DNA from: Pseudomonadota bacterium
Lineage (GTDB): Bacteria > Pseudomonadota > Alphaproteobacteria > Rhodobacterales > Rhodobacteraceae
Direction: 5' to 3'
Length of the DNA stretch: 64,000 nucleotides
Assembly: GCA_020161615.1 (NCBI GenBank)
Contig: JAIUPD010000007.1
Location: forward strand, 228,016-292,015
This document shows, piece by piece, positions 47,353-62,892 of the stretch. Positions within the stretch are counted from its first letter, which is position 1. The number at the start of each line of letters is the position of its first letter. The notes beneath the pieces were generated by a model that saw only the letters and a list, made by a program, of their open reading frames with translations, was not told the DNA's origin and did not search any database. The translations under genes and the position numbers were made by a program.

Positions 47353-47673
47353 TCACCGGCCCGTCGCCACCTGGAAGACCGCGCCTTCCAGCGCCTCCGT
47401 CACGGTCACCTGACAGGTCAGGCGGCTGGTCGGCTGCGGCGCGTGGGCGTTAAACTCGATCGTGTCGGCCTCGTCGATCCGGGGTTCCGGCAGCGGGCCG
47501 TTCGGCGCCTCGATCAGGTAGCAATGGCAGGTCGCGCACATGGCCGAGCCGCCGCATTCGGCGATGATCCCGTCGACGCCCGCGTCCTTGGCGGCATACA
47601 TCAGCGGCTCGCCCGGCTTGGCTTCGACCAAACGCCGCCGGCCGCTTTCCTCGATGAAGGTGACCTTGACCAT
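47353..47673 (-). CDS. Adrenodoxin-type [2Fe-2S] ferredoxin
   Basis: A 106-residue ferredoxin of the adrenodoxin/putidaredoxin/terpredoxin class. Cluster ligands are Cys40, Cys46, Cys49 and Cys87 (C-x5-C-x2-C...C). Such ferredoxins feed electrons to bacterial class I P450s, and this gene closes the operon that contains the P450 at 54107-55357, its most likely partner. A dedicated ferredoxin reductase gene is not in the window. Starts 9 bp after the dehydrogenase stop behind GAGAGGA. Confidence 0.93.
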   Translation of the reverse strand: MVKVTFIEESGRRRLVEAKPGEPLMYAAKDAGVDGIIAECGGSAMCATCHCYLIEAPNGPLPEPRIDEADTIEFNAHAPQPTSRLTCQVTVTEALEGAVFQVATGR

Positions 47674-47682
47674 GGAATCCTC

Positions 47683-48435
47683 TCAGATGAACTGCTTGCC
47701 GCCGTCGATCACCAGCGTATGCCCGGTGACGAAGCCCGAGAGCGACGAGGCAAGGTACAGTGCGCCGCCGGTGATATCCTCGACCTCGGCATTGCGCTTG
47801 AGCGCGGCGCGGTCCACGCCATAGCTGCGCGCATCCTCGATCAGGCCGAGGCTCGCTTCAGTGAGGGTGAAGCCCGGGGCGATGACATTGACGCGGATGC
47901 CGTCGCGGCCCATCTCGCGCGCCATGGTGCGGGTCATGGCGATCACCGCCCCCTTGGAAGCTACGTAATGCATCCAGAGGGGCGAGCCCGACAGCACGGT
48001 GGCCGAGGCGATGTTGACGATCGAGCCGCCCTTCTGCGCCCGCATCAGCGGCGAGACAGCGCGGGTCATCTGCCAGACGCCCTTGATGTTGACCGCCATC
48101 ACCCGGTCCCAGATTGCCTCGTCGATCTCCTCGAAGGGCGCGCGCTGGAGCCCGGCATAGAGGGCCGCGTTGTTGATCAGCACATCCACGCCGCCCAGCT
48201 CGGCCTCGGCCCGCGCCACCACCGCCTTGCAGGAGGCCTGCTGCGTCACATCCAGCGTGGCGGCGATGCAGCCCTCGCCGATCTGCGCGGCGGTTTCCTC
48301 GGCGCCCGCGCGGTTGATGTCGGCGGCGATCACCCTGGCGCCGACCCCGGCAAAGGCCTGGGCGAAGGCGCGGCCAAGCCCGCCCCCTGCCCCGGTAACG
48401 ATCACGCGCTTTCCGGTCAACGAGATGTCGCCCAT
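47683..48435 (-). CDS. Short-chain dehydrogenase/reductase
   Basis: A 250-residue classical SDR. Cofactor motif TGAGGGLG (about residues 15-22), an Asp at the end of strand 2 (AADINR) favouring NAD+, NNAA, and the catalytic Ser-Tyr-Lys (IASATVLSG...YVASK). C-terminus SGFVTGHTLVIDGGKQFI is usual. In this operon it likely oxidises a hydroxyl introduced by the P450. Its start lies inside the 3' end of the upstream HD-domain gene (19-bp overlap), indicating coupling. Confidence 0.93.
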   Translation of the reverse strand: MGDISLTGKRVIVTGAGGGLGRAFAQAFAGVGARVIAADINRAGAEETAAQIGEGCIAATLDVTQQASCKAVVARAEAELGGVDVLINNAALYAGLQRAPFEEIDEAIWDRVMAVNIKGVWQMTRAVSPLMRAQKGGSIVNIASATVLSGSPLWMHYVASKGAVIAMTRTMAREMGRDGIRVNVIAPGFTLTEASLGLIEDARSYGVDRAALKRNAEVEDITGGALYLASSLSGFVTGHTLVIDGGKQFI

Positions 48436-49088
48436 TGGCCCGCTCCTTCGGTCTGGGGGAATTGGGGGAATTCGGGGCCGCGGCCCAGATAGGCCCGGAT
48501 CGCCTGTTCGGCGGCGACGGCGGCGGTATTGGCCTCGGCCAGGGCCCGGCCCTGCGGTGTCAGCATCAGCGGGTTCGAGCGTTCGCGCAGCATCATCAGC
48601 ACTTCGGACACCGAAACCCCGTACCAACCGGCGATGGTGCGCATCCCGTGCGGCGTGGTCCGCCAGCCCTTGTCCGCGTCCTTCAGCACCGCGTCGTTGA
48701 GGTTCTTGGCCTCCTTCGTCGTGTCATGGCCGTCGATGATGGCCAGCGCCGCCTCAATGTCGACGCCTTCGGGCCGGTGGCGCTCCAGAATCTCGCGGGC
48801 GATCTCGACCGAATGCAGTTCGTGCTCGCGGACCAGATCCTTGCGGGTCGGATAGCGGCCGATGGCCAGCAGCAGCAAATCCTCGGGGATGCGTTTCCAG
48901 CCGATATCGTGCAGCAGGATCGCGGGCAGGACCACGCTGTCATCCGCCTCGGGGATCTGGGCCAGCAGCGCGCGGGCCAGACCGTAGGCGACGATGGTGT
49001 GCTCGTCGTTGTTGCGCACGTCGAGATAGGGGCGCGCCTCGTGCCAGAGGGCAAGGTCGCGCGGCAGGAAAACGTCGTCGGGCGTCAC
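48417..49088 (-). CDS. HD-domain protein 1 of the P450 operon
   Basis: A 223-residue HD-superfamily protein. The metal motif is LLHDIGWKRIPED with a second acidic/His pair IDGHDTTKEAKNLND and ADKGWR. Compact HD proteins of this type hydrolyse phosphate monoesters or nucleotides. Start is GTG at 49088, overlapping the aldehyde dehydrogenase stop (GTGA). It is a paralogue-like partner of the HD protein at 50534-51130. Possible role: removing phosphate from a phosphorylated pathway intermediate, or binding one. Confidence 0.88.
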   Translation of the reverse strand: MTPDDVFLPRDLALWHEARPYLDVRNNDEHTIVAYGLARALLAQIPEADDSVVLPAILLHDIGWKRIPEDLLLLAIGRYPTRKDLVREHELHSVEIAREILERHRPEGVDIEAALAIIDGHDTTKEAKNLNDAVLKDADKGWRTTPHGMRTIAGWYGVSVSEVLMMLRERSNPLMLTPQGRALAEANTAAVAAEQAIRAYLGRGPEFPQFPQTEGAGQWATSR

Positions 49089-50521
49089 AGCGGCGGCTCC
49101 CAGCTCAGGTACAGGGTCTTGTATTCCAGATAGCTTTCAACGCCGTAGCGGCCCTTTTCGCGCCCCAGCCCGCTTTCCTTCATGCCGCCGAAGGGGACGT
49201 GATGGCTGGCGCGCTGGATGTCGTTGAGCCAGACGGAGCCCGCCTCGAACCCCTCGCACAGCGCCATGCCCAGCGCGAGGTCGCGGGTAAAGACGAAGCC
49301 CGCCAATCCGAAACGGCTGTCATTGGCCAGCCGCAACGCCTCGGCCGGACTGTCCACCGGGGCGATGCCGATCACCGGGCCGAAGGTTTCCTCGCGCATG
49401 ATCAGCATTTCGGGCGTGGCGTCGGCAATCAGCGTCGGCGGCATGTAGCAGCCGCCGTCATAGCCGGGGCCGCGCGCCTGCTCGCCGCCTGCGAGGATCC
49501 GCGCGCCCTTCGCCTTTGCATCGGCGATCTGCTGTTCCGAGGTGGCGAAGATGCGGGCGTTGACCAGCGGGCCCAGATCCCCCTCGCCGCCTGCGGGCGC
49601 CAGCGTCAGTTTCCGCGCCCGGGTGGCGAGCCGTTCCAGCAGCGCCTCGTAGACCGGGCGCTCGACATAGAGGCGGTTCACCCGGTAGCAGAACTGCCCG
49701 CTGTTGGCGAAGCCGTGGCGGGTGATCGCCTCGGCCGCCTTGTCGAGGTCGGCGTCGGCGCAGACGATGGCGGCGGAATGGCCGCCCAGTTCCAGCGTCA
49801 CCCGTTTCATGGTCCCGGCGGCGGCGGCGGCGATGGCCTTGCCGGCGGGGACGGAGCCGGTGAAGGCGATCTTGCGCGGCACCGGATGGGCGACCAGCGC
49901 CTCGCCCAACGCCCGGGCGCCGGTGACGACGTTGAAAAGCCCCGCGGGCAAGCCGGTCGCGTGGAAGAGCTCGGCCAGCATCAGGGTCGAGAGCGGCGTG
50001 TCCTCCGAAGGCTTGGTGACCACCGGACAGCCCGCGATCAGCGCCGCGCCGAGTTTGAACATCAACAGCGTGATCGGATAGTTGAAGGGCGTGATCGCCA
50101 CCACCACGCCCACCGGATCGCGGGTGACGACGATCCGCTCGCCGGGGGCCGAGCCCAGCGCCTGCGTCGCGTAAAGCCGCAGCCCTTCCTCGGCGTAGAT
50201 GTCGAGGAGGTTGGCGGAGCTGGCGATCTCGGCGATGCAGCCGGGCAAGGGGCGGCCCAGTTCGCGGTTCAGCGCCGCGCCGATTCGCGGCGCCTGATCC
50301 CGCATCGCCTGCGCGCAGGCCTTGACCAGCCGCACGCGCTCGGCCATCGGCACGCGCTTCCAGCCCTCGAAGGCCCGGGCGGCCGAGGCGATGGCGCGTT
50401 CGGCATCGGCGGCCTCGCCCAGCGGCACGGTGTCGATGACCGCGCCATTGGTCGGGTCCGTGACGGGCATCACCTGCCCCGATTGCGCGGCGACCCAGCC
50501 GCCATCCAGAAACATCTCCAT
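49085..50521 (-). CDS. Aldehyde dehydrogenase
   Basis: A 478-residue NAD(P)+-dependent ALDH. Features are TPFNYPITL (substrate tunnel), KPSEDTPLS, FTGSVPAGKAIA, general base Glu in LELGGHSA, catalytic Cys in NSGQFCYRVNR and the C-terminal FGGMKESGLGREKGRYGVE. It probably oxidises an aldehyde formed downstream of the P450/GMC steps to a carboxylate. Overlaps HD gene 1 by 4 bp, 12 bp from HD gene 2. Confidence 0.95.
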   Translation of the reverse strand: MEMFLDGGWVAAQSGQVMPVTDPTNGAVIDTVPLGEAADAERAIASAARAFEGWKRVPMAERVRLVKACAQAMRDQAPRIGAALNRELGRPLPGCIAEIASSANLLDIYAEEGLRLYATQALGSAPGERIVVTRDPVGVVVAITPFNYPITLLMFKLGAALIAGCPVVTKPSEDTPLSTLMLAELFHATGLPAGLFNVVTGARALGEALVAHPVPRKIAFTGSVPAGKAIAAAAAGTMKRVTLELGGHSAAIVCADADLDKAAEAITRHGFANSGQFCYRVNRLYVERPVYEALLERLATRARKLTLAPAGGEGDLGPLVNARIFATSEQQIADAKAKGARILAGGEQARGPGYDGGCYMPPTLIADATPEMLIMREETFGPVIGIAPVDSPAEALRLANDSRFGLAGFVFTRDLALGMALCEGFEAGSVWLNDIQRASHHVPFGGMKESGLGREKGRYGVESYLEYKTLYLSWEPPL

Positions 50522-50533
50522 CAGCGCGTTCCC

Positions 50534-51130
50534 CTACAGCACATGCGCGAGCAGCAGGGCCCGGGTACGGGCCAGCTCCTCGGTGGCCAGGCGGCGGCCC
50601 GGCTCGGTCTCGAATTTCGGCAGGATTGCCTCGTTGCGCGTGCAGTTCTGCACTGGCGTCTCGCCGAACCAGTCGCAGCCCACGGCGGTGCCCGTCACCT
50701 CGTAGCGCCAGAGCTTGTCGCTGTCGCGGACGATGCGGTCGTTCAGATGGCGCGGCTGCTCACGGGTGTCGTGGCCGTCGATGATCTCGCAGACCTGGGC
50801 GATGACCTCCTCGGACCAGCCGGTCGCGCGCAACACCTCGGTCCCCAGCCGCACGCCCTCGGCCTCGTGCCGGTAGCGCACATCCGATTGCAGGATGTTC
50901 TGGGACCGGAAGCCTTGTTCAATGATCTCCTCCATGTCGATGGCCCACCAGCCGATGTCATGCAGCAGGATCGCCAGCAGGCAGACATCGCGGTCGGCCT
51001 GGGGGAAATGCTCCAGCAGCCGCACGCACCAGGCGAAGGACAGCGGGATATGCACGTCATTCTTGCGCGCCCGCATGTAGGGTTCGGCTTCGCGCCAGAC
51101 AGGATCGTAGCGCGACAGGTCAGCAGTCAT
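50534..51130 (-). CDS. HD-domain protein 2 of the P450 operon
   Basis: A 198-residue HD-superfamily protein similar in layout to the HD protein two genes downstream. Motifs are LLAILLHDIGWWAIDMEEII and IDGHDTREQPRHLND with DSDKLWRYE. Both proteins share ARKNDVHI/VRNNDEHT-type N-termini and the order LLHDIGW ... DGHDT, so they probably arose by duplication. Located directly after the dikinase-like genes. A phosphatase or phosphoryl-sensing function fits, but is unproved. Confidence 0.88.
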   Translation of the reverse strand: MTADLSRYDPVWREAEPYMRARKNDVHIPLSFAWCVRLLEHFPQADRDVCLLAILLHDIGWWAIDMEEIIEQGFRSQNILQSDVRYRHEAEGVRLGTEVLRATGWSEEVIAQVCEIIDGHDTREQPRHLNDRIVRDSDKLWRYEVTGTAVGCDWFGETPVQNCTRNEAILPKFETEPGRRLATEELARTRALLLAHVL

Positions 51131-51181
51131 GGTCAGCGGTCCACAGGAAGAAGACGGGGGGCCCTGCGGCCCCCCGGGGGG

Positions 51182-52993
51182 TCAGTCGAGGATCGTCACC
51201 GTTCCGGCATTGCCATCGACGCGCAGCCGCATGCCAGTCTTGATCCGCGAGCTGGCGTTGCCGGTGCCGGTGACGGCGGGCAGGCCGTATTCGCGGCAGA
51301 CGATGGCCGCATGGCTCATCATGCCGCCGATATCGGTGACGGCGGCGCCGATCTTGCCGAAGACCGGCGCCCAGGAGGGCGCGGTGACCGGCGTGACCAA
51401 AATCTCGCCCTTCTGCAATTCGCTGAGCTGATCGGGCGAGCGCAGCACGCGGGCCACCCCCTCGACCACCCCCGGCGATCCGGCCATGCCGCGCAGGGCG
51501 CCGTCGTCCCCGTCCGATTTCACCCAGCGTTCCACCGCGTCCGAGGTGATGCCCCACAGCATGATGGTGAAGGGTTCGGTGATGACTTCGGGCGGGTTGT
51601 TCAGCGCGGGCAGCGGCGATTCCGCGGCCAGCGCCTCGTAGATGCGGCGGCGGCGGGCGATCTCCTCGGGCCAGACGGCGGTGCCGCGATAGGGCACGCC
51701 GATGGCCCAGCCGGCCGAATAATCCCAGAGCACGTCCCGCACTTCGTTGCGGTTGAGGAAGAACATGTCGTCGTCATTCTCCCAGAAGCCCTGATCCTTC
51801 AGCAGCTTGGAGAGTTGACGCATCTTCCGCCAGAAGACGCCCAGCGCCCAATGCTCGATGTAGAAGTTGTGATCTTCCACATAGGGGAACACGGTGCGCG
51901 CCAGACCCAACTTGCCGTCAAAGACCGCCTGCGCCTCGTCGTCCATCATCTCGCGATATTCGGCGGTGATGCGGTCACGCTCGGCCAGCAGTTTGGCGGT
52001 CGGGCGCATGATCTCGTCGCCCTCCTCGACCCGCTTGATGTAATCCTTCAGATAGCCCATCGGGATATCGAGGTGGTCGATCCAGTATTTGTCCGTCGAA
52101 TAGAAGCCGTTGCCCGAGGTGAAGTTGAACCACGGGTCCTTCGCCGCCTCCCATTGCGCCAGCCATTCCTTGCCGCCGGGTTTGGTGGCGAGCGTGGCCA
52201 GAATCACCTCCACGCTGTCGCCTTCGAACACCGGCGAGAGGCCCGAGGCCACGGCGAGCTTGGCCAGTTTCTTGATCTCGTCATCCGGGCGGAAGAGTTC
52301 CGAATCCACGCCCTGCACCATCTTGGCGATGGCCTGGTCGGGGATCTGCGGGAACTGGCCCTTCATGAAGCCGAAGAAATCGAGATAGGCCGCATAGCCG
52401 AGGTTCAGGAATTCGAAATGATGCTGCCAGATCTTGTAGGCCAGCTCGATCGCCTTGTCGTATTGGTCGAACAGCTGGTTCGTGCTGTCGAGGCCCACGC
52501 CCCCCGTCACCACCTCCAGCGCCTCGACCTCGGGCAGCGCCGTGAAATTCAGCGCGTCCAGCTCGCGGATCTTGGCCAGGACCTTGTCCTTCCAGTTCGC
52601 ATAAAGATCGCCCCAGTTCATGAAGTAATGGCCCGCACGCTCCATGAAATGCGGGACGCGGCCTTCGATCTGCTCGCCGGGGACCGCCACGGGCGAGAAA
52701 TAGACATAGCCGTTCAGGATGCGGTAATCGACGCCATTGGCGGGCGGCACCAGCAGGTGACGGGTGTTGTATTGCCCCAGCCCCTTGATGGCGAAATCCA
52801 GCATCACCGTGTCGAAGGGCCGGAACGGCGTCGGCCAATGCTGCGAGTTGCAGAACCAGAAGGTCGCGTCGTCCTGTTGCCGCCGCTGCGGCAGGAAATG
52901 CGTGTAATAGGGGTAGAGATCCTGCCAGCCCTCGGCGCCTTTCGGCGTCGGAACCTCGAAGGCCGAGGGGAACATGCTCTTCATGGCGTCCAT
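51182..52993 (-). CDS. Dikinase-type large subunit with PEP-utilizing mobile domain (PpsA-like)
   Basis: A 603-residue protein resembling the large (about 70 kDa) subunit of phenylphosphate synthase. Residues 1-510 form an all-new substrate-domain-like region (Trp/Tyr rich, e.g. FWFCNSQHWPTPFRP); the C-terminal 85 residues are a swivelling phosphohistidine domain with GGMMSHAAIVCREYGLPAVT, His561 being the expected phosphorylated residue. There is no PEP-binding barrel as in PEP synthase, so the acceptor is not pyruvate. With the ATP-grasp protein encoded upstream it would carry ATP-beta-phosphate to a substrate hydroxyl, releasing AMP and Pi. Start behind GGGAGGA. Confidence 0.88.
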   Translation of the reverse strand: MDAMKSMFPSAFEVPTPKGAEGWQDLYPYYTHFLPQRRQQDDATFWFCNSQHWPTPFRPFDTVMLDFAIKGLGQYNTRHLLVPPANGVDYRILNGYVYFSPVAVPGEQIEGRVPHFMERAGHYFMNWGDLYANWKDKVLAKIRELDALNFTALPEVEALEVVTGGVGLDSTNQLFDQYDKAIELAYKIWQHHFEFLNLGYAAYLDFFGFMKGQFPQIPDQAIAKMVQGVDSELFRPDDEIKKLAKLAVASGLSPVFEGDSVEVILATLATKPGGKEWLAQWEAAKDPWFNFTSGNGFYSTDKYWIDHLDIPMGYLKDYIKRVEEGDEIMRPTAKLLAERDRITAEYREMMDDEAQAVFDGKLGLARTVFPYVEDHNFYIEHWALGVFWRKMRQLSKLLKDQGFWENDDDMFFLNRNEVRDVLWDYSAGWAIGVPYRGTAVWPEEIARRRRIYEALAAESPLPALNNPPEVITEPFTIMLWGITSDAVERWVKSDGDDGALRGMAGSPGVVEGVARVLRSPDQLSELQKGEILVTPVTAPSWAPVFGKIGAAVTDIGGMMSHAAIVCREYGLPAVTGTGNASSRIKTGMRLRVDGNAGTVTILD

Positions 52994-53030
52994 TCTTTAT
53001 CCTCCCAGAGAATGGCCTTGTGACGTGTCG

Positions 53031-54110
53031 TCAAGTTTTCTTCTTGGCGGCCAGCGGATTGGTGAGCGTGCTGACGATGCCCATCATTCCGGTGGCATAG
53101 GCATTCCCCGGCGCCGCCTTCTTCTTCTGCGACCAGATGGTTTCGGGGCGTGATTGCAGGGCCAGCAGGTTCTGACCCTCAGGCAGATCGGCGTCGATGG
53201 CCCATTCCACGTCCTGCGGACAGCCGTTCTGCCGCTCGAGCCGCTTGGCAAGCTGGGCCACGGCAATCACCTGCGCGTCGGTCAGGCTGGGGGTCTGCCG
53301 CCGCGCGGCCTCTACCTCGCGCTCCACGGTCTCGCCGCGCCCGGCATCGCCGATCAATTCGACATGCTTGTCGCTGATCTTGCGGTCGATGATCTCCATC
53401 AGCACCTTCTCGACGCTGAAATTGTCGGGCGTCACCACGCCCGAGACGACCATTTCCCCCAGGCCCCAACTCGCATCAATGACAATCCGCGTGCGGTCGC
53501 CGGTCCCGGGGTCCAGCGTCATCGCCACCCCCGCGGCGCGGGCGTTCACCATCTTCTGCACGCCCACGCTCATGTTCACATCGACATGCGGGATCTTGTT
53601 CTTCTCACGATAGGCCACCGCCCGGGTGGCAAAGAGCGAGGCCCAGCAATCGCGGACCTTCTCGACCACCGCATCGGCGCCCTTGACCCAGAGATAGGTG
53701 TCCTGCTGCCCGGCGAAGGAGGCATCCGGCAGATCCTCGGCCGTGGCCGAGGAGCGCACGGCAACCGGCGTCCCCTCCCCCATGCTGGCGTAAGCCGCAC
53801 GGGTCGCGGCCTCGACCCCCTCGGGCATGCGGTGGCCGCGGATGCGGATGCGGATCGCCTGCGCGGCGCGGTCGATGCTGTCGATGTCGTCGGGATCAAC
53901 GCGGGCCAAATGCCGCTCGATCTCGGCCCTGAGGCCCGATTCCTCCAGCATCGCCAGATAGCCGTCGGTGGTCACGGCAAAGCCCGGCGGCACCGCGACA
54001 CCGGCCTGGGTCATCTCGCCCAGCGAGGCGCATTTGCCGCCAACCCGGGCCAGATCGTGCTTGCCGATCTGGTCGAAGGCCAGCGTATAGGTTCCGTCCG
54101 TCGCGATCAT
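53031..54110 (-). CDS. Dikinase-type ATP-binding subunit, PEP-synthase N-domain-like (PpsB-like)
   Basis: A 359-residue ATP-grasp protein equal to the N-terminal domain of PEP synthase/PPDK and to the 40-kDa subunit of phenylphosphate synthase. Motifs are VGGKCASLGEM, RSSATAEDLPDASFAGQQDT, DVNMSVGVQKMV, SWGLGEMVVSG, and DVEWAID...LLALQSRPET. It phosphorylates the histidine of the mobile domain using ATP. The start overlaps the P450 stop by 4 bp (ATGA). The C-terminal Lys/Thr tail is irregular. Confidence 0.92.
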   Translation of the reverse strand: MIATDGTYTLAFDQIGKHDLARVGGKCASLGEMTQAGVAVPPGFAVTTDGYLAMLEESGLRAEIERHLARVDPDDIDSIDRAAQAIRIRIRGHRMPEGVEAATRAAYASMGEGTPVAVRSSATAEDLPDASFAGQQDTYLWVKGADAVVEKVRDCWASLFATRAVAYREKNKIPHVDVNMSVGVQKMVNARAAGVAMTLDPGTGDRTRIVIDASWGLGEMVVSGVVTPDNFSVEKVLMEIIDRKISDKHVELIGDAGRGETVEREVEAARRQTPSLTDAQVIAVAQLAKRLERQNGCPQDVEWAIDADLPEGQNLLALQSRPETIWSQKKKAAPGNAYATGMMGIVSTLTNPLAAKKKT

Positions 54111-55357
54111 GCGGGTCTACCCAGTTCCACCATGACCGAGGTCGGAACCCGGAAGGTGATATTGCGGTGGTATGCGGGGCGGAAGCCCGGGGCGAGCGTC
54201 ATGGTCGGGAACCGCTCGACCAGTTGACGCGGCAGGATCGCGGCCTCCATCTTGGCCAGCTGGAAGCCCAGGCAATAATGGATGCCGTAGCCGAAGCTCA
54301 GATGGGTGCGGGCATTGTCGCGCAGGATGTTCAGCGTCTCGCCCTGCGGGAACCGCGCCTCGTCGCGGTTGGCGGACCCGGTGATCATCAGGATCTCGGC
54401 CCCCGCGGGCAGGGTCACGCCGCCTACGACGGCCTCGGTCCGCGCCTTGCGCCGCCAGCCCACGACCGAGGGCATGTAGCGCAGCATCTCCTCGACCGCG
54501 TTCGGGATCTTGCCGGGATCGGCCTTGATCGCTTCCCAGGCCTCGGGGTTGTCCAGCATGGCCATCAGGTAATTGCCCATGAAGGTCGAGGTCGTCTCGT
54601 GCCCCGCAAACAGCGTGGAATAAAGGACGCCCGCGATCTCTTCATTGCTGATATCGGCCCCCTCCGCCTGCAGGCGCAGCAGGTCGGTGGGAAAGTCGTC
54701 GCCCGGATCGGCCCGGCGCAGATCCAGCAGGTCGTGGATATATTTCCAGTAGGCCACCATGTCATGCGCGACGGGAATCTGTTCCTCGTCCGACAGGTCC
54801 GACCAGGTCATCTTGCCCCGGCTCATGCCGTATTGCTTGATCTTCGGCACATCGGTGTCGGGGATGCCCATCAGCGTAAACAGCACACGGGCGGGCACCG
54901 GATAGGCGACGATCTCCCAGAAATTCACCGGCCCGCCACCGCGCCCGGCCTCTTCCAGCCGGTCGAGATGGGTCCTCACGATCTCTTCGATCTGCGGCTC
55001 GATCGACTTGAAGCGGCGCGGGCCGAAGCAGGATTGCGCCACCTTGCGGATGCGGGTGTGATCCGGCGGGACGCGGGCGGTGAGACCGGAATAGGCGGTG
55101 AAGCCCCCGTCCTTGAGGATCTGCCGCCCCTCCTCGCACATCGGCCGCATCGGCTTTTGTGCATTCTCCGAACTGAAGGTCTTCCAGTCGTCGAAGATTG
55201 CCTTGATGTCGTCATAGCGCGAAACGACCCAATAGCCGGTCGGCTCGTGAAAGAAGATCGGCTCTTCCTTGCGGAATTGCTCCCAACGGGCATGGGGCGT
55301 ATTCAGATCGAACGGGTCATACCCGTTCGACGGCTTCACGCCGTCAATCGTGTGCAT
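54107..55357 (-). CDS. Cytochrome P450 (catabolic operon)
   Basis: A 416-residue soluble P450. I-helix LFAGHETTSTF has the full acid-alcohol pair, K-helix EEMLR, and heme loop FGYGIHYCLG with ligand Cys362. In contrast to the P450 at 15.8 kb it sits in a regulated multi-gene operon. Expected to hydroxylate the imported compound, fed by the operon's adrenodoxin-type ferredoxin (47353-47673). It begins behind GGGAGGAT, 61 bp after the regulator stop, and is coupled to the dikinase ATP subunit. Confidence 0.95.
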   Translation of the reverse strand: MHTIDGVKPSNGYDPFDLNTPHARWEQFRKEEPIFFHEPTGYWVVSRYDDIKAIFDDWKTFSSENAQKPMRPMCEEGRQILKDGGFTAYSGLTARVPPDHTRIRKVAQSCFGPRRFKSIEPQIEEIVRTHLDRLEEAGRGGGPVNFWEIVAYPVPARVLFTLMGIPDTDVPKIKQYGMSRGKMTWSDLSDEEQIPVAHDMVAYWKYIHDLLDLRRADPGDDFPTDLLRLQAEGADISNEEIAGVLYSTLFAGHETTSTFMGNYLMAMLDNPEAWEAIKADPGKIPNAVEEMLRYMPSVVGWRRKARTEAVVGGVTLPAGAEILMITGSANRDEARFPQGETLNILRDNARTHLSFGYGIHYCLGFQLAKMEAAILPRQLVERFPTMTLAPGFRPAYHRNITFRVPTSVMVELGRPA

Positions 55358-55418
55358 GTCGATATCCTCCCATCTCGGGGACCCTGGTGCCCTCCGGGCT
55401 GGGTCTCGAGCTTGCGAC

Positions 55419-56918
55419 TCAGCGTAGGACCAATTCTTTGGTTTTTCTTTGGCTCAGCGAAAGCCGGTCGAGGGATCGGCAAAGCTCATCATAAACCGCC
55501 CTGATTTCAACGCCTTCCTTGGCCTCGCCCAGAGTCGTCAGCGCCGTCCGGTATTGGCGGAACTGGCGGTGCATGGCATCGGGGCGGCCCATGGCGTGAA
55601 AGACCCGCATCGCCTCGGCATTGGCGGCTTCGCTGGTCGGGTCGATGGCGACGGCCCTCTGCGCCCATTCCAGCGCCTCGCCATAGCGGCGGTACTTGCG
55701 CAGAAGCTTCGACAGGTCGAAATGCAGCCGCATCGCCATCTCGCGCAGCCAGGTGCGGCGCGGCATGATCCAGTCCTCGGTCTCGGTCGCGAGGTATTCG
55801 AGCGGCAGATCCTCGAACAGGTCCCCGGCATAGAGCCGTTCGGCCTCGAAATAGATCGGCAGCGCCAGATCCTCCTGCCCGTGCCGCGCCAGCGACAGCC
55901 CGCGCCGGCAGAGCTGCTCGAAGGCGGTGATGTCGATCAGACTGCCGTCCGGCACGTTCAGCCGGTAGTAATCGCCGTTGCGGGTGATGGCATGCTGGCT
56001 GCCCAGCACCTTGCGGACCATGGCAACGGTATGGTGCAACCGCGCCCGCTTGGTCTGTTCCGCCTCCAGATCCGGCCAGAGCAATTCGCTGATCTGGTCG
56101 GCATGCGCCCCTTTCTCGCCCGCATTGAGCAGATAGGCGAAGAGCGTCTTGCTCTTCTTCGGCGCTCCGCCCTTGGTGCGCCAGTCGACCTCGCGGTGGC
56201 CATCGACGAAGACCCTCAGCTGCCCCAGGCAATGGATATGCCAGCGCGCCCGGGCCGAGGGGGCGCCCAGCGTCGCCCGGTCCTCGTCCAGCCAGTGCGG
56301 GGACGCACCCCTTGCCGCGGCCTTGTCGAAGGTGCGGAAAAAGGTCTGACCGGCGAAATCGGGCACCACGCGGCCCAGCATGAAGCCCAGCTGTTCGTCC
56401 AGCGTCGAGGCGGTCAGCAATTCGCGGGGCAGCCAATAGGGATTCTCATAAAGCCCCGACGGCGCTAGGAAATGTTGGTGCGCCCTGAGCGCGGCCTGCA
56501 AGTGCTCCTCGATCATTCGGTCCTGATTGTAGATCGAGACCACCGTGACCCCCAGCTCCGACGCCGCCTGCTCGGCCACCGTGCCCCAGGCCTCGATGGC
56601 GTTGACGCCCAGCATCGCCGCCAGACTCCAGGTCATGTCGATGAGGATCGTCTCCACCCCGCCCAGCGCGGCCACCCGGTCGCGCACCTTCGCGTAGACA
56701 TCCTCGGGCTCGACGGGCAGCCGGTCGAAGCCCAGCGCCGACAGAGGGCAGCGCCGCCCCTCGGGCACCTGCACCAGCAGGCCCGCGTCATCGCTGACCA
56801 GCAGCGCCGCGCGAGAGCGATCCTGCAAGGCGGCCTCCAGAAAGGCGCCCTCGGTGAAATGGCAAAACAGCGCCGCGTTGATCTCGGCGCCTTGTGGCGA
56901 ATCATCCTGCTCGGCCAT
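55419..56918 (-). CDS. MEDS-SARP transcriptional regulator
   Basis: A 499-residue regulator with an unusual fusion. Residues about 12-150 resemble a MEDS/DcmR-type sensory domain (INAALFCHFTEGAFLEAALQ; ILIDMTWSLAAMLGVNAIEA; VVSIYNQDRMIEEHLQAALRAH). Residues about 230-320 form an OmpR-type winged helix (LGQLRVFVDGHREVDW; KSKTLFAYLLNAG; ELLWPD), and 335-480 a BTAD/TPR region (FEQLCRRGLSLARHGQEDLA and EALEWAQRAVAIDPTSEAAN). It is the first gene of the operon, divergent from the GMC/Liv genes, and probably controls both. SARP activators bind direct repeats near -35; none was pinned down. Confidence 0.82.
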   Translation of the reverse strand: MAEQDDSPQGAEINAALFCHFTEGAFLEAALQDRSRAALLVSDDAGLLVQVPEGRRCPLSALGFDRLPVEPEDVYAKVRDRVAALGGVETILIDMTWSLAAMLGVNAIEAWGTVAEQAASELGVTVVSIYNQDRMIEEHLQAALRAHQHFLAPSGLYENPYWLPRELLTASTLDEQLGFMLGRVVPDFAGQTFFRTFDKAAARGASPHWLDEDRATLGAPSARARWHIHCLGQLRVFVDGHREVDWRTKGGAPKKSKTLFAYLLNAGEKGAHADQISELLWPDLEAEQTKRARLHHTVAMVRKVLGSQHAITRNGDYYRLNVPDGSLIDITAFEQLCRRGLSLARHGQEDLALPIYFEAERLYAGDLFEDLPLEYLATETEDWIMPRRTWLREMAMRLHFDLSKLLRKYRRYGEALEWAQRAVAIDPTSEAANAEAMRVFHAMGRPDAMHRQFRQYRTALTTLGEAKEGVEIRAVYDELCRSLDRLSLSQRKTKELVLR

Positions 56919-57145
56919 TCCCCCCTCCGAAATCCGTGATTTCCCCGGAGATTAGTTCATACGGCAATCATTGCCAAAGAGAAACCAAAGTCTCACGCCT
57001 AGCCTTGGCTCAGCGTCTGGGGAGGCGCAGGGAGGATTCGTCGGCATCGCAACTGTCGCGCCCGGTCTGGGGCGTGGTCGGAAAAGCTTTGCCTGCGAAA
57101 GGGTTGCGCCAGGCGACGGCGCCGATCTGGGGGCAGATTACGCCG
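56919..57145. promoter_or_regulatory. Divergent control region of the P450/dikinase and GMC/Liv units
   Basis: A 227-bp gap between the regulator start and the GMC start, without a gene. It contains an A/T-rich island (56945-57000, with TTAGTTCATACGGCAATCATTG), unusual for this GC-rich window, as expected for promoters. Copies of TGGCTCAG/AGCCTTGGCTC occur near 57000. I could not assign -35/-10 boxes or SARP heptamer repeats with confidence. Confidence 0.45.
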
Positions 57146-58786
57146 ATGACTGTGACGATGAGCTTCGATTACGTGATCGTCGGCGCGGGTTCGGCGGGGG
57201 CGGTACTGGCGCATCGCCTGTCCGAAGATCCCGGCGTCCGGGTCTGTCTGATCGAGGCCGGTCCGCGCGACCGCTCTCCCCTGATCCGGGTGCCGCTGGG
57301 GGTCATGGTTCTGGCCAGGGACCGGCGGCACAACTGGCTTTACACCTCGGCCCCGCAAGAGGGGCTGAACGGTCGGCAGGTGTCGATCCCGCGCGGCAAG
57401 GTGCTGGGCGGTTCCTCGGCGATCAACGGCATGATCTACATCCGCGGCCATCGGGCGGATTATGACGGCTGGGCAGCGCTGGGTTGCGCGGGTTGGGATT
57501 ACGCGTCGCTCCTGCCCTATTTCCGGCGCTCGGAGGGCAACGACGATCCGTCGATGGACGACAGCTTTCATGGCCGCGACGGGCCGCTCTCGGTCACCTC
57601 GCTGCGCGACGCCTCGCCGGTGGACCGCGACTTCATCGAGGCGGCCGGGCAGATGCAGATCCGCGCCTGCGCCGATTTCAACGCGCCCGAGCCCGAGGGC
57701 GTCGGCCTCTATCAGGTGACGCAGAAGGATGGCAAACGCCATTCCACGGCCGAGGCCTTCCTCAAGCCGATCCGCGCCCGGCAGAACCTGCATGTCGAGA
57801 CGGGGCTGGAGGTCACCCGCGTTTCGGTCGCCGAGGGCCGCGCCACCGGCATCCTGGGGCGGCGGCCGGACGGCAGCGCGGTCACGATCCATGCCGCGGG
57901 CGAGGTGATCCTCAGCGCCGGGGCCATCGGCTCGCCCGATATCCTGCTGCGCTCGGGCATCGGTCCGGGGGCCGAGATCGCGGGCTGGGGCGGCGCCCCG
58001 GTGCTGGATCTGCCGGGCGTCGGGCGCAACCTTCAGGATCATGTCGATTGCCTGGTGATCAGCCGCTCGCGCTCGCGCCAACCCTATGGCCTGTCGCTGC
58101 CCGCCCTGCCCCGGCGGGCGCTGGATGTCGCGAACTGGCTGACGCGGCGGCGCGGCATGTTCTCGTCCAACATGGTCGAGGCCGGGGGATTCGTGCGAAC
58201 CTCGCCGGCCGAGGCGCGGCCCGACATCCAGTTCCACATCATCCCCGGGTTGAAAAGCCATCGCGGGCGGATGGTGGAATGGGGCCACGGCGTCACGCTG
58301 CATACGTGTGTCCTCAGACCCGACAGCCGCGGTTCCGTGACCCGCAGCGGGACGGAGGGCGCGCCGGTCGTGGACCTGGGCCTGCTGCGCGAGGAAAGCG
58401 ATGTGGTGCGGCTGGCCAGGGGCGTCGCCCTGGCGCGGCAGATCCTGCGCCAGGCGCCCCTCGCCCGCCACGGCCTGACCGAGGTGATCCCGGGCGAGGC
58501 GGTGACCGATGACCGGGCGCTGCAAGCCTTTGTGCGCGACCAGGCGCGGACCGTCTACCACCCGGTCGGCACCTGCGCGATGGGCATCGGCGCCGAGGCG
58601 GTGGTCGACCCCCAGCTCAGGGTCCGCGGCATCGCCGGGCTCAGGGTTGTCGATGCCTCGATCATGCCGCGCATCGTTTCAGGCAATACCAACGCCCCCG
58701 CCATCATGATCGCCGAAAAGGCCGCCGACATGATCCGCGCGTCCCGGCATGCCGCGCCCGCCCGCTCGGCCCGGGCGGCGGAGTGA
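57146..58786 (+). CDS. GMC-family alcohol dehydrogenase/oxidase
   Basis: A 546-residue FAD-dependent GMC oxidoreductase (choline dehydrogenase/AlkJ-like). FAD motif DYVIVGAGSAGAVLAHRLSE, GMC signature 1 RGKVLGGSSAINGMIYIRG and signature 2 GAIGSPDILLRSGIG, catalytic YHPVGTCAMG and NTNAPAIMIAEKAADM. It oxidises primary alcohols to aldehydes, consistent with the ALDH across the divergent promoter. The start may be ATG 57146 or 57158; upstream frame is in the promoter. It is the first gene of the plus-strand unit. Confidence 0.93.
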   Translation: MTVTMSFDYVIVGAGSAGAVLAHRLSEDPGVRVCLIEAGPRDRSPLIRVPLGVMVLARDRRHNWLYTSAPQEGLNGRQVSIPRGKVLGGSSAINGMIYIRGHRADYDGWAALGCAGWDYASLLPYFRRSEGNDDPSMDDSFHGRDGPLSVTSLRDASPVDRDFIEAAGQMQIRACADFNAPEPEGVGLYQVTQKDGKRHSTAEAFLKPIRARQNLHVETGLEVTRVSVAEGRATGILGRRPDGSAVTIHAAGEVILSAGAIGSPDILLRSGIGPGAEIAGWGGAPVLDLPGVGRNLQDHVDCLVISRSRSRQPYGLSLPALPRRALDVANWLTRRRGMFSSNMVEAGGFVRTSPAEARPDIQFHIIPGLKSHRGRMVEWGHGVTLHTCVLRPDSRGSVTRSGTEGAPVVDLGLLREESDVVRLARGVALARQILRQAPLARHGLTEVIPGEAVTDDRALQAFVRDQARTVYHPVGTCAMGIGAEAVVDPQLRVRGIAGLRVVDASIMPRIVSGNTNAPAIMIAEKAADMIRASRHAAPARSARAAE

Positions 58787-58924
58787 CCCCATGACATCGA
58801 TCTTCACCCCCCGCGACCACAGCAAGCCCGGGGATTGGAGCTGCGGCGACGGAACCGGGAGGGTTCCGTCGCTGCCAAGACCGAAAACGGCACCACAAAG
58901 CACGTCCAACGGAGGAGACAAACC

Positions 58925-60178
58925 ATGCATTTCGCAAGAACGATCGGGGTGGCCGGCGCCATTCTGACGCTGTCGCTGGGCACTCAGGCCATGGCCGAGG
59001 TCAGTTGCGGCATGAACACGGGACAGGCCGCCACCGGGGCCCCGATCCTGGTCGGCGGCATCTACGGCAACGCAGCCCCGGGCGACTGGTCGTCCTCGAC
59101 CGATTCCGCCGCCGCCTATTTCGCCTGCGTCAACGCCAACGGCGGCATTCATGGGCGCCCCGTCGATTACCGGGTCGAGAACGACCAATGGAACCCCGAA
59201 GCCGCCGCCCAGGCCGCCGCGCGTCTGGTCAACGACACGCCGACCGTGGCCATGGTCGGCAACGGGTCCTTCATCGAGATGGCGGTGAACGCCAATACCT
59301 ACGAGGCGGCCGGGATCATGGTCATGGCCTCGGCCTGCGCCATCTCGGAATGTTTCGAGACGCCGAACATCGTCTCGACCAACCAGGGGCCGCTGTCCTC
59401 GAACCTCGGCGCCGCGCAATACGCGGTCGAGGAACTGGGCGCGCAGCATGTCGCCTGCATCGGGCTCAACATCCCCAACAACGGGATCTGGTCGTGCCAG
59501 GCGGTGCAGGATTTCATGCGCTCGCGGGGCGGCGACGCGACGGCGGTGCTGATCAACCCGGGCGCGCCGGACGTGAACTCGGCGCTCCTCGAGGCCATGG
59601 CCTCGGGCGCGGACACGATCCTCATCAACCAGCCTGCAGGCATCGCGCTCGCGATCCTCTCGGCCGCCGAGGAACAGGACCTGCGCGATCAGTTCAACTG
59701 GATCGCCCCCACGCCGCTTTACGATCAATCGGTTCCGGCCGCGGTCGGCGCCTATTGGTGGGGCCACATCTACGTCAACGCCGAACTCGCGCCCCTTGAG
59801 GTGAACGGCCCCGACGCGCAGAACTGGATCGCGGTGCTGGATCAATACGGCCAGCCCGACGACCCGCGCGACAGCTTCGGGCAGGCGGGCTATCTGTCGG
59901 CGCGCTTCTTTACCGAGGCGATGCTGGCCATGGACCCCGCGCAGCTTGACGACCGGGCAGCGGTCGGCGCGGCGATCCGCGGGATCAGCGGCTATACCTC
60001 GGACCTGATGTGCGGCCCCTATTACGTGGGCGACGCCGATTTCCACATGCCGAACCACGCCGGCTACATGGTCAAGGTGGTCGAGGGCGGCTTCGAGATC
60101 GTCCGCGAGTGCTACGAATACGACAGCCCCTATTTCGAGCCGCATATCGCCCTCGAAACCCAGCTCGGCCTGCGCTGA
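58925..60178 (+). CDS. Liv-type ABC substrate-binding protein
   Basis: A 417-residue periplasmic protein of the branched-chain/aromatic ligand type (type 1 fold). Signal peptide MHFARTIGVAGAILTLSLGT up to AMA|E. Family segments include PILVGGIYGNAAPGDWSSST, FACVNANGGIHGRPVDYRVE and MVGNGSFIEMAVNANTYEAA; extra Cys pairs (CGMNTG, CAISEC) may form disulfides. Members of this group bind diverse small hydrophobic or aromatic acids as well as Leu/Val. RBS GGAGGAG is 8 nt upstream. It lies 138 bp after the GMC gene. Confidence 0.92.
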   Translation: MHFARTIGVAGAILTLSLGTQAMAEVSCGMNTGQAATGAPILVGGIYGNAAPGDWSSSTDSAAAYFACVNANGGIHGRPVDYRVENDQWNPEAAAQAAARLVNDTPTVAMVGNGSFIEMAVNANTYEAAGIMVMASACAISECFETPNIVSTNQGPLSSNLGAAQYAVEELGAQHVACIGLNIPNNGIWSCQAVQDFMRSRGGDATAVLINPGAPDVNSALLEAMASGADTILINQPAGIALAILSAAEEQDLRDQFNWIAPTPLYDQSVPAAVGAYWWGHIYVNAELAPLEVNGPDAQNWIAVLDQYGQPDDPRDSFGQAGYLSARFFTEAMLAMDPAQLDDRAAVGAAIRGISGYTSDLMCGPYYVGDADFHMPNHAGYMVKVVEGGFEIVRECYEYDSPYFEPHIALETQLGLR

Positions 60179-60233: not shown

Positions 60234-61190
60234 ATGATACTGGCACGATACGGAAACTGGCTGCTCTGGGCCTTGCTCATGGCGGGGCTGATCGGCTTCT
60301 TCGGCTGGGGCGGACGCCCACAGATGGTGGGGCTGTTCATCGCCTCGGGGCTGGCGGTCGGCTCGCTTTACGCCTTGGCGGGGATCGGCATCGTCGTCCT
60401 CTACCGCGCGACCGGCGTCCTCAATTTCGCGGGCGGCGCGGCGGGGGCGGCGGGGGCGATGACCGCCTGGCAACTGACCGCCTGGGGTTTCTGGGAGCCG
60501 CTGGGCTGGCTCGCCTGCCTGCTGGTCGCCACCGCCATCACGCTCTTCTACGGGCGCCTCATCGCGCCGCGCCTCGCCTGGCGGGAAACCGTGGTCAAGG
60601 CGGTGGCGACGCTGGGCTTCGCGCTCATTATCCTCGGCGCCATCAGCTTCCTCTGGGCCGATGACCCGCGCTCGATCTCGCTGCCGACCGACGCCATCGG
60701 GGTGCGGCTGCTGGGGATGCGGATCACCGCGACGCGGCTTCTTCTCTTCGCCGCCTCCATCGGGATCGTGCTGGGCATCTGGCTGTTCCTCGCCCGCACC
60801 ACCATCGGCCTGCAGATGCGGGCGCTGGCCAATGACCGGGACCTGGCGGCGCTGATGGGCATCCCGATCCTCAGGGTCGAGACCATCGCCTGGGGCATCG
60901 CCGGGCTGCTGGCAGGCTTCACCGGGCTGATGTTCGCCGATCTGATCCGGCTGGAGCCCAGCGTCATCACCTTCATGGTCATCCCCGGCATCGCCGCCGC
61001 CATCTGCGGGCGGCTGGAGAACCTGGCCGTGGTGCTGATCGGCGGGCTGTCGATGGGCGTGATCGAAAACATGCTCACCATGTCGCCTGTGCTGCGCGGG
61101 GTGCGGCCCATTGCCCCCTTCGTCATCGCGGCGCTGGTGCTGCTTTACTATCAACGCGGCCAACGGCTGACCTTCGGCGGGCGGGACTGA
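60234..61190 (+). CDS. Liv-type ABC permease LivH
   Basis: A 318-residue permease with about eight membrane segments. LivH signatures are GLAVGSLYALAGIGIVVLYR, TGVLNFAGGAAGAAGA, IGLQMRALANDRDLAALMGI and RLENLAVVLIGGLSMGVIE. It forms the pore with LivM, encoded 1 bp downstream. N-terminal extra helix (residues 8-28) is present. Confidence 0.93.
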   Translation: MILARYGNWLLWALLMAGLIGFFGWGGRPQMVGLFIASGLAVGSLYALAGIGIVVLYRATGVLNFAGGAAGAAGAMTAWQLTAWGFWEPLGWLACLLVATAITLFYGRLIAPRLAWRETVVKAVATLGFALIILGAISFLWADDPRSISLPTDAIGVRLLGMRITATRLLLFAASIGIVLGIWLFLARTTIGLQMRALANDRDLAALMGIPILRVETIAWGIAGLLAGFTGLMFADLIRLEPSVITFMVIPGIAAAICGRLENLAVVLIGGLSMGVIENMLTMSPVLRGVRPIAPFVIAALVLLYYQRGQRLTFGGRD

Positions 61191-61191
61191 G

Positions 61192-62184
61192 ATGCGGCAC
61201 CTCTTCCACGTCACCCCCTCGGGATGGGCGGGCCTCGCCACCGCCGCCTTCGGCATCCTGGTGCTGCCGTCCCTTGCCAGCAGCTACTGGCTGTCGGTCT
61301 TCACCTCGATGGGCTGTTTCCTCCTGGCCATTGCCGGGGTCGCCTTCATGTACGCGCGCCTCGGCATGGTGTCCCTGACGCAGGTGGGCCTGATGGGCGT
61401 CGGCGGCTGGATCGCGCTGCGCCTCAATCACGCCTTCGACTTCCCCTTCGAGGTCAACCTCGCGCTGGCCGCCACCGCCACCATGATCTTCGGCTGGATC
61501 CTCGCCCTGCCCGCCCTCAGGATGCGGGGCCTCTATCTGGCGCTGGTCACGCTGATGGCGGCAGGCGGGCTGGAGATCATCTTCGCCACCTTCCAGTTCC
61601 CGAACGGCGGCGCGGGGTTCTGGGGCGTGCAGACCGGCTCGGGCGCGGCCTTCCGGCGGCCCTGGATCGCCCAATCCCCGCAGGCCTATCTGCGCTATGT
61701 GATCGCCTGCGCCCTGCTCGGCTTCCTCTGCATCGAGCTGCACCGCCGCCTGCAACCGGGCCGAGCCTGGGCGCTCATTCGCCGGTCCGAGGCCGCGGCG
61801 ATGGCAGCGGGGGTCAATGTCACGCTCTACAAGACCTGGGCCTTCGGCATCGCCGGGCTTCTCGGCGGGGCCGCGGGCGCGCTGCTGGCGGGTTCGCTGG
61901 GCTTGCTGGACGACGGGACGTTCCGCGCCTCGGAAAGCGTGATGATCTTCGCGCTGGCGGTGGTCGGGGGCGCGCATTCCTGGCAGGGCGCGCTGATCGC
62001 GGCGGTTCTCTACAAGGTGCTGCCGGCGCTGCTGAACATCTGGGGCGTGGACGCGAACCTCGCCTTCGTCATCTTCGGCGCGGGCCTCCTGCATGCCGTG
62101 ATCACCGCGCCGCAGGGGATCGCCGGGCAGGTCCTGGAAGGACTGGGGCGCCTGTCGCCGAAACGCGGGGCCAAGGATGCTTGA
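61192..62184 (+). CDS. Liv-type ABC permease LivM
   Basis: A 330-residue permease with about ten hydrophobic segments. ARLGMVSLTQVGLMGVGGWI, LPALRMRGLYLALVTLMAAG and VNVTLYKTWAFGIAGLLGGA with GALLAGSLGLL are conserved LivM features. Overlaps the LivG start by 8 bp, so the operon is translationally coupled. Confidence 0.93.
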   Translation: MRHLFHVTPSGWAGLATAAFGILVLPSLASSYWLSVFTSMGCFLLAIAGVAFMYARLGMVSLTQVGLMGVGGWIALRLNHAFDFPFEVNLALAATATMIFGWILALPALRMRGLYLALVTLMAAGGLEIIFATFQFPNGGAGFWGVQTGSGAAFRRPWIAQSPQAYLRYVIACALLGFLCIELHRRLQPGRAWALIRRSEAAAMAAGVNVTLYKTWAFGIAGLLGGAAGALLAGSLGLLDDGTFRASESVMIFALAVVGGAHSWQGALIAAVLYKVLPALLNIWGVDANLAFVIFGAGLLHAVITAPQGIAGQVLEGLGRLSPKRGAKDA

Positions 62185-62890: not shown

Positions 62891-62892
62891 GC

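Follow-up and report, generated by a model that had tools for sequence, protein, structure and literature searches.

A 64,000-nucleotide stretch of contig JAIUPD010000007.1 from a member of the Rhodobacteraceae (the window; positions 228,016 to 292,015 of assembly GCA_020161615.1) carries nine open reading frames (ORFs) on the minus strand at 47353-56918, encoding a SARP-type regulator, a cytochrome P450, the two subunits of a split dikinase (I and H), two HD-domain proteins (HD1 and HD2), an aldehyde dehydrogenase (ALDH), a short-chain dehydrogenase/reductase (SDR) and a 2Fe-2S ferredoxin. This cluster probably specifies an alkylphenol pathway of the Cre type, in which the substrate is phosphorylated first, together with an extension that would handle ethyl side chains by way of a carboxylase module of the Hpe type. 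The core is thus, to judge from its gene families, that of a known pathway, although no report of it in this group was found in the open-access literature.

The dikinase provides the first line of evidence. The H subunit matches NF006150 at 1001 bits, relative to a cut-off of 650 that was exceeded in only one of 14 control genomes; its sequence contains TDIGGMMSHAAIV, and it bears the motif TDIGGMMSH. The two-component phenol dikinases HpeHI, CreHI and PpsAB are described as sharing a T/SxxGGxxxH motif, in which the residue before the catalytic histidine is serine in CreH and PpsA and cysteine in HpeH (PMC12167813). In the window's H subunit this residue is serine, as published for CreH. The I subunit is the sole PPDK_N match at E ≤ 0.001 in its own genome, and its best match in the PDB is 9goj (277.6 bits). 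A tree built from 94 H proteins separates 87 P450-linked rows (including L045, which is cut by a contig end, and L084, which has no P450) with support 100, starred, from seven outgroup rows, among them the phenylphosphate-synthase-type Azoarcus and Hpe-type Rhizobium proteins, and the window's H falls within the P450-linked clade and not with the Pps-type, Hpe-type or other outgroups. Its own clade comprises 18 rows (support 98, starred), most of them accompanied by a divergent GMC oxidoreductase and an importer. All trees came from quick searches under LG+G4 with SH-aLRT; H proteins shorter than 500 aa were dropped, and the H tree has long branches (L020, L084 and others). By homology, H and I are a two-component phenol dikinase of the CreH/CreI kind, and the split dikinase recognized in an earlier note on this DNA is borne out by the NF006150 match, the PPDK_N partner and the position in the tree. 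The identification of H as a phosphoenolpyruvate (PEP) synthase or pyruvate phosphate dikinase was rejected, since the likeness is confined to the swivel domain.

The precedent for such a cluster is the cre operon of Corynebacterium glutamicum, in which creC encodes an aldehyde dehydrogenase, creD a phosphohydrolase, creE and creF subunits of the P450 system, creG a 4-hydroxybenzyl alcohol dehydrogenase, creH and creI the 4-methylbenzyl phosphate synthase and creJ the P450, and in which the degradation of cresol is reported to start with phosphorylation (PMC7764795). The earlier note knew of no described pathway joining these parts, and held that its proposal would fall if homologous clusters were already assigned to one; for the core, the cre operon is such a pathway. 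Its view of substrate phosphorylation as the key step, on the other hand, fits the same precedent. The SDR and ALDH belong to the Pfam families expected for CreG and CreC. Furthermore, two Rhodococcus plasmids carry the order IclR-P450-I-H-SDR-ferredoxin-reductase-HD-ALDH near toluene-4-monooxygenase genes, and the window's proteins are 60-61% (H), 54-55% (I), 50-51% (P450) and 54-55% (SDR) identical to those of these plasmid clusters. A ferredoxin reductase is not found among the nine genes of the cluster, the remaining genome not having been searched for one.

The P450 leads in the same direction. Its best PDB match is 5xjn/5gwe (436.7 bits), with the next different protein at 250 bits. The window's P450 is 48.8% identical to 5xjn; for P450s from the actinobacterial clusters the figure is 59-79%, and 5xjn sits within their clade. 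We take 5xjn, 5gwe and 7ccf to be CreJ, the PDB listing naming only "Cytochrome P450"; its nesting among the actinobacterial proteins makes 5xjn a P450 of their kind at the least. After removal of P450s with less than 70% coverage or fewer than 330 aa (83 of 84 were kept), the window's protein groups in a 13-row clade, designated A-type, with a long stem (0.52) and support 100, starred. This clade consists of the P450s of the window's H clade except those of L037, L042, L043 and L044 (L084 has none). In the alignment, which was used for the comparison after an exact-block test of the B-C loop matched only 44 of 83 sequences, A-type P450s have Tyr176 where 72 of 72 others have tryptophan and Val298 where 71 of 72 others have isoleucine, and they differ also at two residues of the I-helix, 257 and 259. 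These four positions, Tyr176 and Val298 foremost, are candidate determinants of a changed substrate pocket.

These features also bear on the idea that the cluster serves an Hpe-type pathway for 4-hydroxyacetophenone or acetovanillone, with the P450 and ALDH acting elsewhere, for example on ring methoxy groups. While homologues of HpeCBA, HpeD and HpeE are indeed present in the same genome, the placement of H apart from the Hpe- and Pps-type outgroups, the serine in place of the cysteine of HpeH, and a P450 nearest to 5xjn make this explanation improbable.

The tree of 150 HD proteins separates those in the CreD position, next to ALDH, from those of the HD2 kind, in sets of 87 and 63 rows (support of 91, unstarred), and HD1 groups with the HD protein that adjoins ALDH in the actinobacterial clusters. 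Proteins shorter than 150 aa had been dropped (148 of 151 kept). Both sets retain the pattern H, HD, H, H, D: H27, H57-D58, H88, H120 and D136 are invariant in HD1, and H30, H60-D61, H89, H121 and D139 are conserved in HD2, with D137 nearly so. These metal ligands were judged by column conservation, a stricter regular expression having matched none of the 150 rows, and the HD profiles gave only weak matches to the PDB (best E 0.0016 and 1.1). CreD is presumably an HD protein, to which we liken HD1 by position and clade; HD1 is, by position, the better candidate for CreD than HD2. The earlier suggestion that the HD proteins act on phospho-compounds is plausible. The second HD clade, of the HD2 kind and with its metal ligands intact, accompanies these clusters in several phyla. 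Diiron oxygenases, too, belong to the HD fold.

The arrangement is widely conserved. A survey scanned 84,980 species genomes, and the best 80 of at least 500 candidates encoding a relative were kept. In 78 of these 80 loci the P450, I and H genes directly follow one another, the two exceptions being L045 and L084, for the reasons given above. I and H occur in all 80, SDR and ALDH in 76 each, ferredoxin in 62 (adjoining the SDR in most relatives), two or more HD proteins in 60, a SARP regulator in 40, an IclR regulator in 34 and a periplasmic binding protein in 12. The loci span Pseudomonadota, Actinomycetota, Bacteroidota and Chloroflexota. Within the same order, an H protein of 67-81% identity was found in five of 390 sampled genomes, the window's own included (five more had one at 27-37%), and the order SARP-P450-I-H-HD-ALDH-HD-SDR is kept in all four of the other genomes, with the ferredoxin seen in three. 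The co-occurrence of the dikinase subunits with P450 and HD genes, which had been proposed as a check, goes beyond what chance would give.

What distinguishes the window's clade is its association with a second set of genes, consisting of a biotin carboxylase (BC), a carboxyltransferase (CT) of the PYC_OADA/HMGL-like kind, a HAD phosphatase, an acetoacetate-CoA-ligase-like enzyme and usually an SDR. In L033, L034, L035, L036, L039, L040 and L046 this module runs convergently to the cluster, and in L041 it does so in part, at a contig end. From ORF sizes it might have been taken for a methylcrotonyl-CoA carboxylase set, a candidate that was discarded when Pfam and NCBIfam returned AMP-binding ligase, HAD, PYC_OADA and biotin carboxylase. 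Its composition matches instead the HpeCBA-HpeD-HpeE set, of which HpeCBA is reported to carboxylate phospho-acetovanillone and phospho-acetophenone but neither compound in its unphosphorylated form (PMC9618137).

Across 30 genomes searched (L055 was left out), a CT of at least 70% identity is present in 10 of 10 genomes with an A-type P450, the query's own included, and in none of the 20 others, whose best, at 41%, belongs to an Arthrobacter with an H/I pair alongside. The ligase behaves similarly over 25 genomes: nine of the ten A-type genomes (the query being one) have it at 61% identity or higher, and the remaining 15 do not exceed 44%. In the window's own genome, contig 5 carries IclR, biotin carboxyl carrier protein (BCCP), BC, CT, HAD and SDR genes in this order (L152; CT 71% identical to that of L033), and contig 2 carries the ligase homologue (62% to L033). 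Since this genome holds a single PPDK_N protein and HpeCBA needs a phosphorylated substrate, the window's kinase would be the evident supplier. A further pair of biotin carboxylase (56%) and carboxyltransferase (35%) genes lies on contig 11 of the same genome (L153), close to an ORF of 927 aa that matches a P450 weakly (26%). A sample of 380 genomes from the order yielded a CT of at least 69% in three: the window's own, G187, which has the cluster, and G246 (L168), which has a full carboxylase operon (CT 69%, ligase 60%) adjoining a branched-chain-type ABC importer.

Physical linkage is seen as well. A CT lies in the flank of 11 of the 80 loci, seven in the window's clade plus L069, L081, L089 and L092. 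In L069, from a Rhodobacteraceae metagenome-assembled genome, one strand carries SARP-P450-I-H-HD2-SDR-BCCP-BC-CT one after the other, the contig ending within the CT; neither ALDH nor HD1 nor ferredoxin was detected on this stretch. In Arthrobacter sp. C2 (L092), BCCP-BC-CT-HAD-ligase directly precedes IclR-P450-I-H, and in L089 and L081 the module adjoins the cluster in other orientations. It thus seems that the joining of the Cre and Hpe modules was assembled more than once, in Alphaproteobacteria and Actinobacteria, with other lineages having combined the two either independently or by transfer. Apart from these P450-bearing loci, a Rhizobium plasmid (L019) has H-I-BCCP-BC-CT-HAD-ligase in a row, its CT being 59% identical to that of L033.

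Gene content, homology, linkage and co-occurrence are observations; the reactions, their order and their substrates are what we infer from them. The I subunit would use ATP to charge the histidine of H, which would transfer the phosphate to the phenolic hydroxyl. The P450 and ferredoxin would then hydroxylate the alkyl group of the aryl phosphate, the SDR and subsequently the ALDH would oxidize the resulting alcohol, an HD enzyme would remove the phosphate, and PobA, followed by protocatechuate ring cleavage, would act on the product. In the window's clade, this front end would be combined with the Hpe-type module so as to serve also, or mainly, ethyl side chains: 4-ethylphenol would pass through 4-ethylphenyl phosphate and 1-(4-phosphophenyl)ethanol to 4-phosphoacetophenone, from which carboxylation, dephosphorylation and formation of a CoA ester would lead to 4-hydroxybenzoate and acetyl-CoA.

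The rationale is that benzylic hydroxylation of an ethyl group followed by SDR action would give a ketone, which is useless to an ALDH yet usable by an acetophenone carboxylase, and L069, with its P450, SDR and carboxylase and no detected ALDH, encodes just such a route. Moreover, XccBCA of strain EbN1, a homologue of HpeCBA, is reported to serve anaerobic ethylphenol degradation and to be clustered with hpeHI homologues (PMC9618137). On these grounds, 4-ethylphenol is the best guess for the substrate of the extended pathway. Dikinases of this kind accept substrates over such a range, HpeHI being described as phosphorylating cresol roughly one-fourth as fast as 4-hydroxyacetophenone (PMC12167813). 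CreJ has reportedly been studied with phosphorylated ethylphenols (7ccf). Where ALDH and HD1 are kept, 4-cresol is likely still accepted. Among the substrates put forward previously, alkylphenols fit, and no pointer was found to a terpenoid, ether or cyclic-ketone route. For an undescribed aerobic 4-ethylphenol pathway as such, in which the Cre front end makes 4-phosphoacetophenone for the Hpe back end, the chances appear slightly better than even.

A simpler possibility is that the cluster is a plain Cre pathway converting 4-cresol or a near analogue to 4-hydroxybenzoate, with the carboxylase serving imported 4-hydroxyacetophenone and merely sharing the kinase. The retention of ALDH and of a CreD-type HD protein would be expected in this case. 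Among the 93 loci searched, 86 are of the P450 type (four being duplicates of two genomes, L021/L036 and L024/L054); eight of these 86 lie by a homologue of the toluene-4-monooxygenase alpha subunit (TmoA-like), and 13 have a pobA- and/or pcaH-like gene in their flank. Toluene-4-monooxygenase can make 4-cresol. Of 20 genomes tested, 17 have PobA over cut-off, 11 the beta subunit of protocatechuate 3,4-dioxygenase and 10 LigA, so that a ring-cleavage marker of one kind or another is present in all 20; in the window's genome, pobA over cut-off lies on contig 4 with LigA and LigB genes adjoining. However, the carboxylase tracks the window's type of P450, and L069 retains the P450 and SDR without ALDH or HD1. 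The plain pathway is therefore considered possible but unlikely.

Several observations weigh against the ethyl-extended Cre pathway. ALDH and the CreD-type HD protein, superfluous in a pure ethylphenol route, are kept in most of the clade, and the neighboring GMC and ABC genes find no place in the scheme. The module is unlinked to the cluster in the window's own genome, where it lies on other contigs. The ten CT-positive genomes are related and hence do not represent ten independent events. In L069, L081, L089 and L092 a carboxylase is linked without an A-type P450 (that of L069 lies outside the clade), and so this P450 type is not required; conversely, L037, L042 and L044 have an H protein in the window's clade, a P450 outside the A-type and no such carboxylase. 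G246, a genuine exception, is not among the H matches in the sample of 390 genomes from the order; its kinase may be different or missing from the assembly, or else its module works otherwise. As pobA is over cut-off in 77 of 121 control genomes of the order, its presence alone says little. Finally, 5GWE is treated as a binder of a vitamin D compound in PMC10879549, in conflict with its assignment as CreJ.

An alcohol substrate would be in keeping with the GMC oxidoreductase and importer, which the window's clade retains next to the cluster; the earlier note had proposed that the dikinase phosphorylates an alcohol, either made by the P450 or imported, which then passes to the HD proteins. A distant dikinase pair in fact shares an operon with a GMC gene and an ABC importer (L028, L128). 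Yet a P450-made alcohol that is then phosphorylated reverses the order reported for cre, in which phosphorylation comes first (PMC7764795), and in L123-L127 importer-GMC-ALDH modules are found with no dikinase. This order of events is thus very improbable.

The dikinase-free modules just mentioned (ALDH-GMC-binding protein-ABC) were seen in five genomes of the order, their binding proteins being 61-74% identical to the window's. The distant pair (L028:1737-10802 in G025, and L128 in G026) is about 38% (I) and 28% (H) identical to that of the window; its operon includes genes for an ABC importer of the branched-chain type and for a GMC oxidoreductase 64% identical to the window's, but no P450, the ALDH being divergent in L028, and neither genome is among the pobA matches in the 121 genomes of the order. 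Dikinase genes occur in other settings, too. In L084, whose H sits on a long branch in the window's clade, SARP, I, H, GMC and importer genes are present, and P450, HD, ALDH and SDR genes are missing. On a haloarchaeal plasmid (L020), H and I are flanked by a metallophosphoesterase and a HAD phosphatase, with ring-hydroxylating dioxygenase genes nearby, and on a Thermomicrobium roseum plasmid (L018) they have no obvious partner genes alongside.

The layout of the locus is given in Table 1. The ORF listing and Pfam agree with the nine genes, positions and families named in the earlier note except for a MEDS domain in the SARP regulator, for which Pfam at E ≤ 1e-3 gave BTAD and a weak TPR match. 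The tight packing it described likewise holds, with overlaps of at most 19 bp and gaps of at most 61 bp, given the 250-aa SDR start; the listed SDR ORF opens at a TTG at 48627, and homologues favor the shorter protein. The periplasmic binding protein has no PDB match at E ≤ 1e-5. Past the ferredoxin lie a MoaA-like radical SAM protein and CcmF, which from their Pfam families appear unrelated to the cluster.

Table 1. Genes of the P450-dikinase cluster and of the adjoining divergent genes in the window.
Feature	Position	Strand	Match and presumed role
2Fe-2S ferredoxin	47353..47673	-	Pfam Fer2, 34.5 bits; presumed P450 electron donor (CreE/F role)
SDR	47683..48435	-	Pfam adh_short_C2; presumed alcohol dehydrogenase (CreG role)
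HD2	48417..49088	-	Pfam HD; second HD clade
ALDH	49085..50521	-	Pfam Aldedh, 501 bits; presumed CreC role
HD1	50534..51130	-	Pfam HD; presumed CreD-type aryl-phosphate phosphohydrolase
Dikinase H subunit, 603 aa	51182..52993	-	PEP-utilisers mobile domain; substrate-binding and swivel domain, Ser560-His561
Dikinase I subunit, 359 aa, ATP-grasp	53031..54110	-	PPDK_N, 372.7 bits
P450	54107..55357	-	Related to PDB 5xjn/5gwe
SARP-type regulator	55419..56918	-	Pfam BTAD, 53.5 bits, and weak TPR
GMC oxidoreductase, divergent	56894..58786	+	Pfam GMC_oxred_N/C; start probably downstream, near MTVTMSF
Periplasmic binding protein of branched-chain-amino-acid-type ABC importer	58835..60178	+	Pfam Peripla_BP_6
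Two ABC permeases (60234-61190, 61192-62184)	60234..62184	+	Pfam BPD_transp_2
Two ABC ATPases (62177-62890; second within ORF 62398-63597)	62177..63597	+	Pfam ABC_tran

No description of a Cre core paired with an Hpe-type carboxylase was found in the open-access literature, outside which most subscription papers lie; diverse combinations of hpe homologues are mentioned in PMC9618137, in a supplementary figure (SI Fig. S5) that may already cover some of the loci described here, and its authors write that they knew of no aerobic aromatic pathway with carboxylation besides Hpe. If the proposal is right, the joined pathway would be the second of this kind, and it would illustrate how phosphate-tagged intermediates allow P450 and carboxylase modules to be combined. 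The reason that such pathways begin with phosphorylation has been called unclear (PMC12167813), and a clade whose single kinase serves two back ends would make the purpose of this step testable. The proposal also predicts what a cluster conserved among Rhodobacterales and their relatives would act on, namely 4-ethylphenol, and brings new variants of the kinase and the P450 with which alkylphenols might be oxidized.

Among known systems, the Cre pathway shares with the window, by function as described and with only the P450 compared in sequence, a dikinase, P450, ferredoxin, alcohol and aldehyde dehydrogenases and a putative phosphohydrolase, and in both the P450, I and H genes adjoin. It differs in that the window has a SARP regulator where the actinobacterial clusters have IclR, two HD proteins, the divergent GMC and importer genes, a P450 with under half of its residues identical to 5xjn, and an Hpe-type carboxylase elsewhere in the genome. 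The Hpe pathway of Rhodococcus rhodochrous GD02 (HpeHI, HpeCBA, HpeD, HpeE) uses the same kind of kinase, and the window's genome holds homologues of its carboxylase (BCCP, BC, CT), HAD phosphatase and ligase; however, the description of the Hpe cluster in PMC9618137 names no P450 or HD protein, and in the window the kinase belongs to the P450-linked clade and the carboxylase to another contig. The p-ethylphenol pathway of Aromatoleum aromaticum EbN1, whose XccBCA is homologous to the module's carboxylase, is by contrast anaerobic, and oxidizes the side chain without a P450. Phenylphosphate synthase of Thauera and Aromatoleum has homologous H and I subunits (47.6% and 49.6% identity to those of Azoarcus KH32C) and the same proposed phosphohistidine mechanism (PMC12167813), but it is accompanied by a CBS-domain third subunit and ppc genes, present in Azoarcus L017, and by no P450. 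Neither a CBS-domain subunit nor ppc genes are found by Pfam among the nine cluster genes, as the earlier note had remarked, and a phenylphosphate carboxylase route was dismissed on this ground. More distantly, rifampin phosphotransferase and PEP synthase share the ATP-grasp and swivel domains of the window's dikinase, but are described as single-chain enzymes with other substrate-binding domains (PMC12167813).

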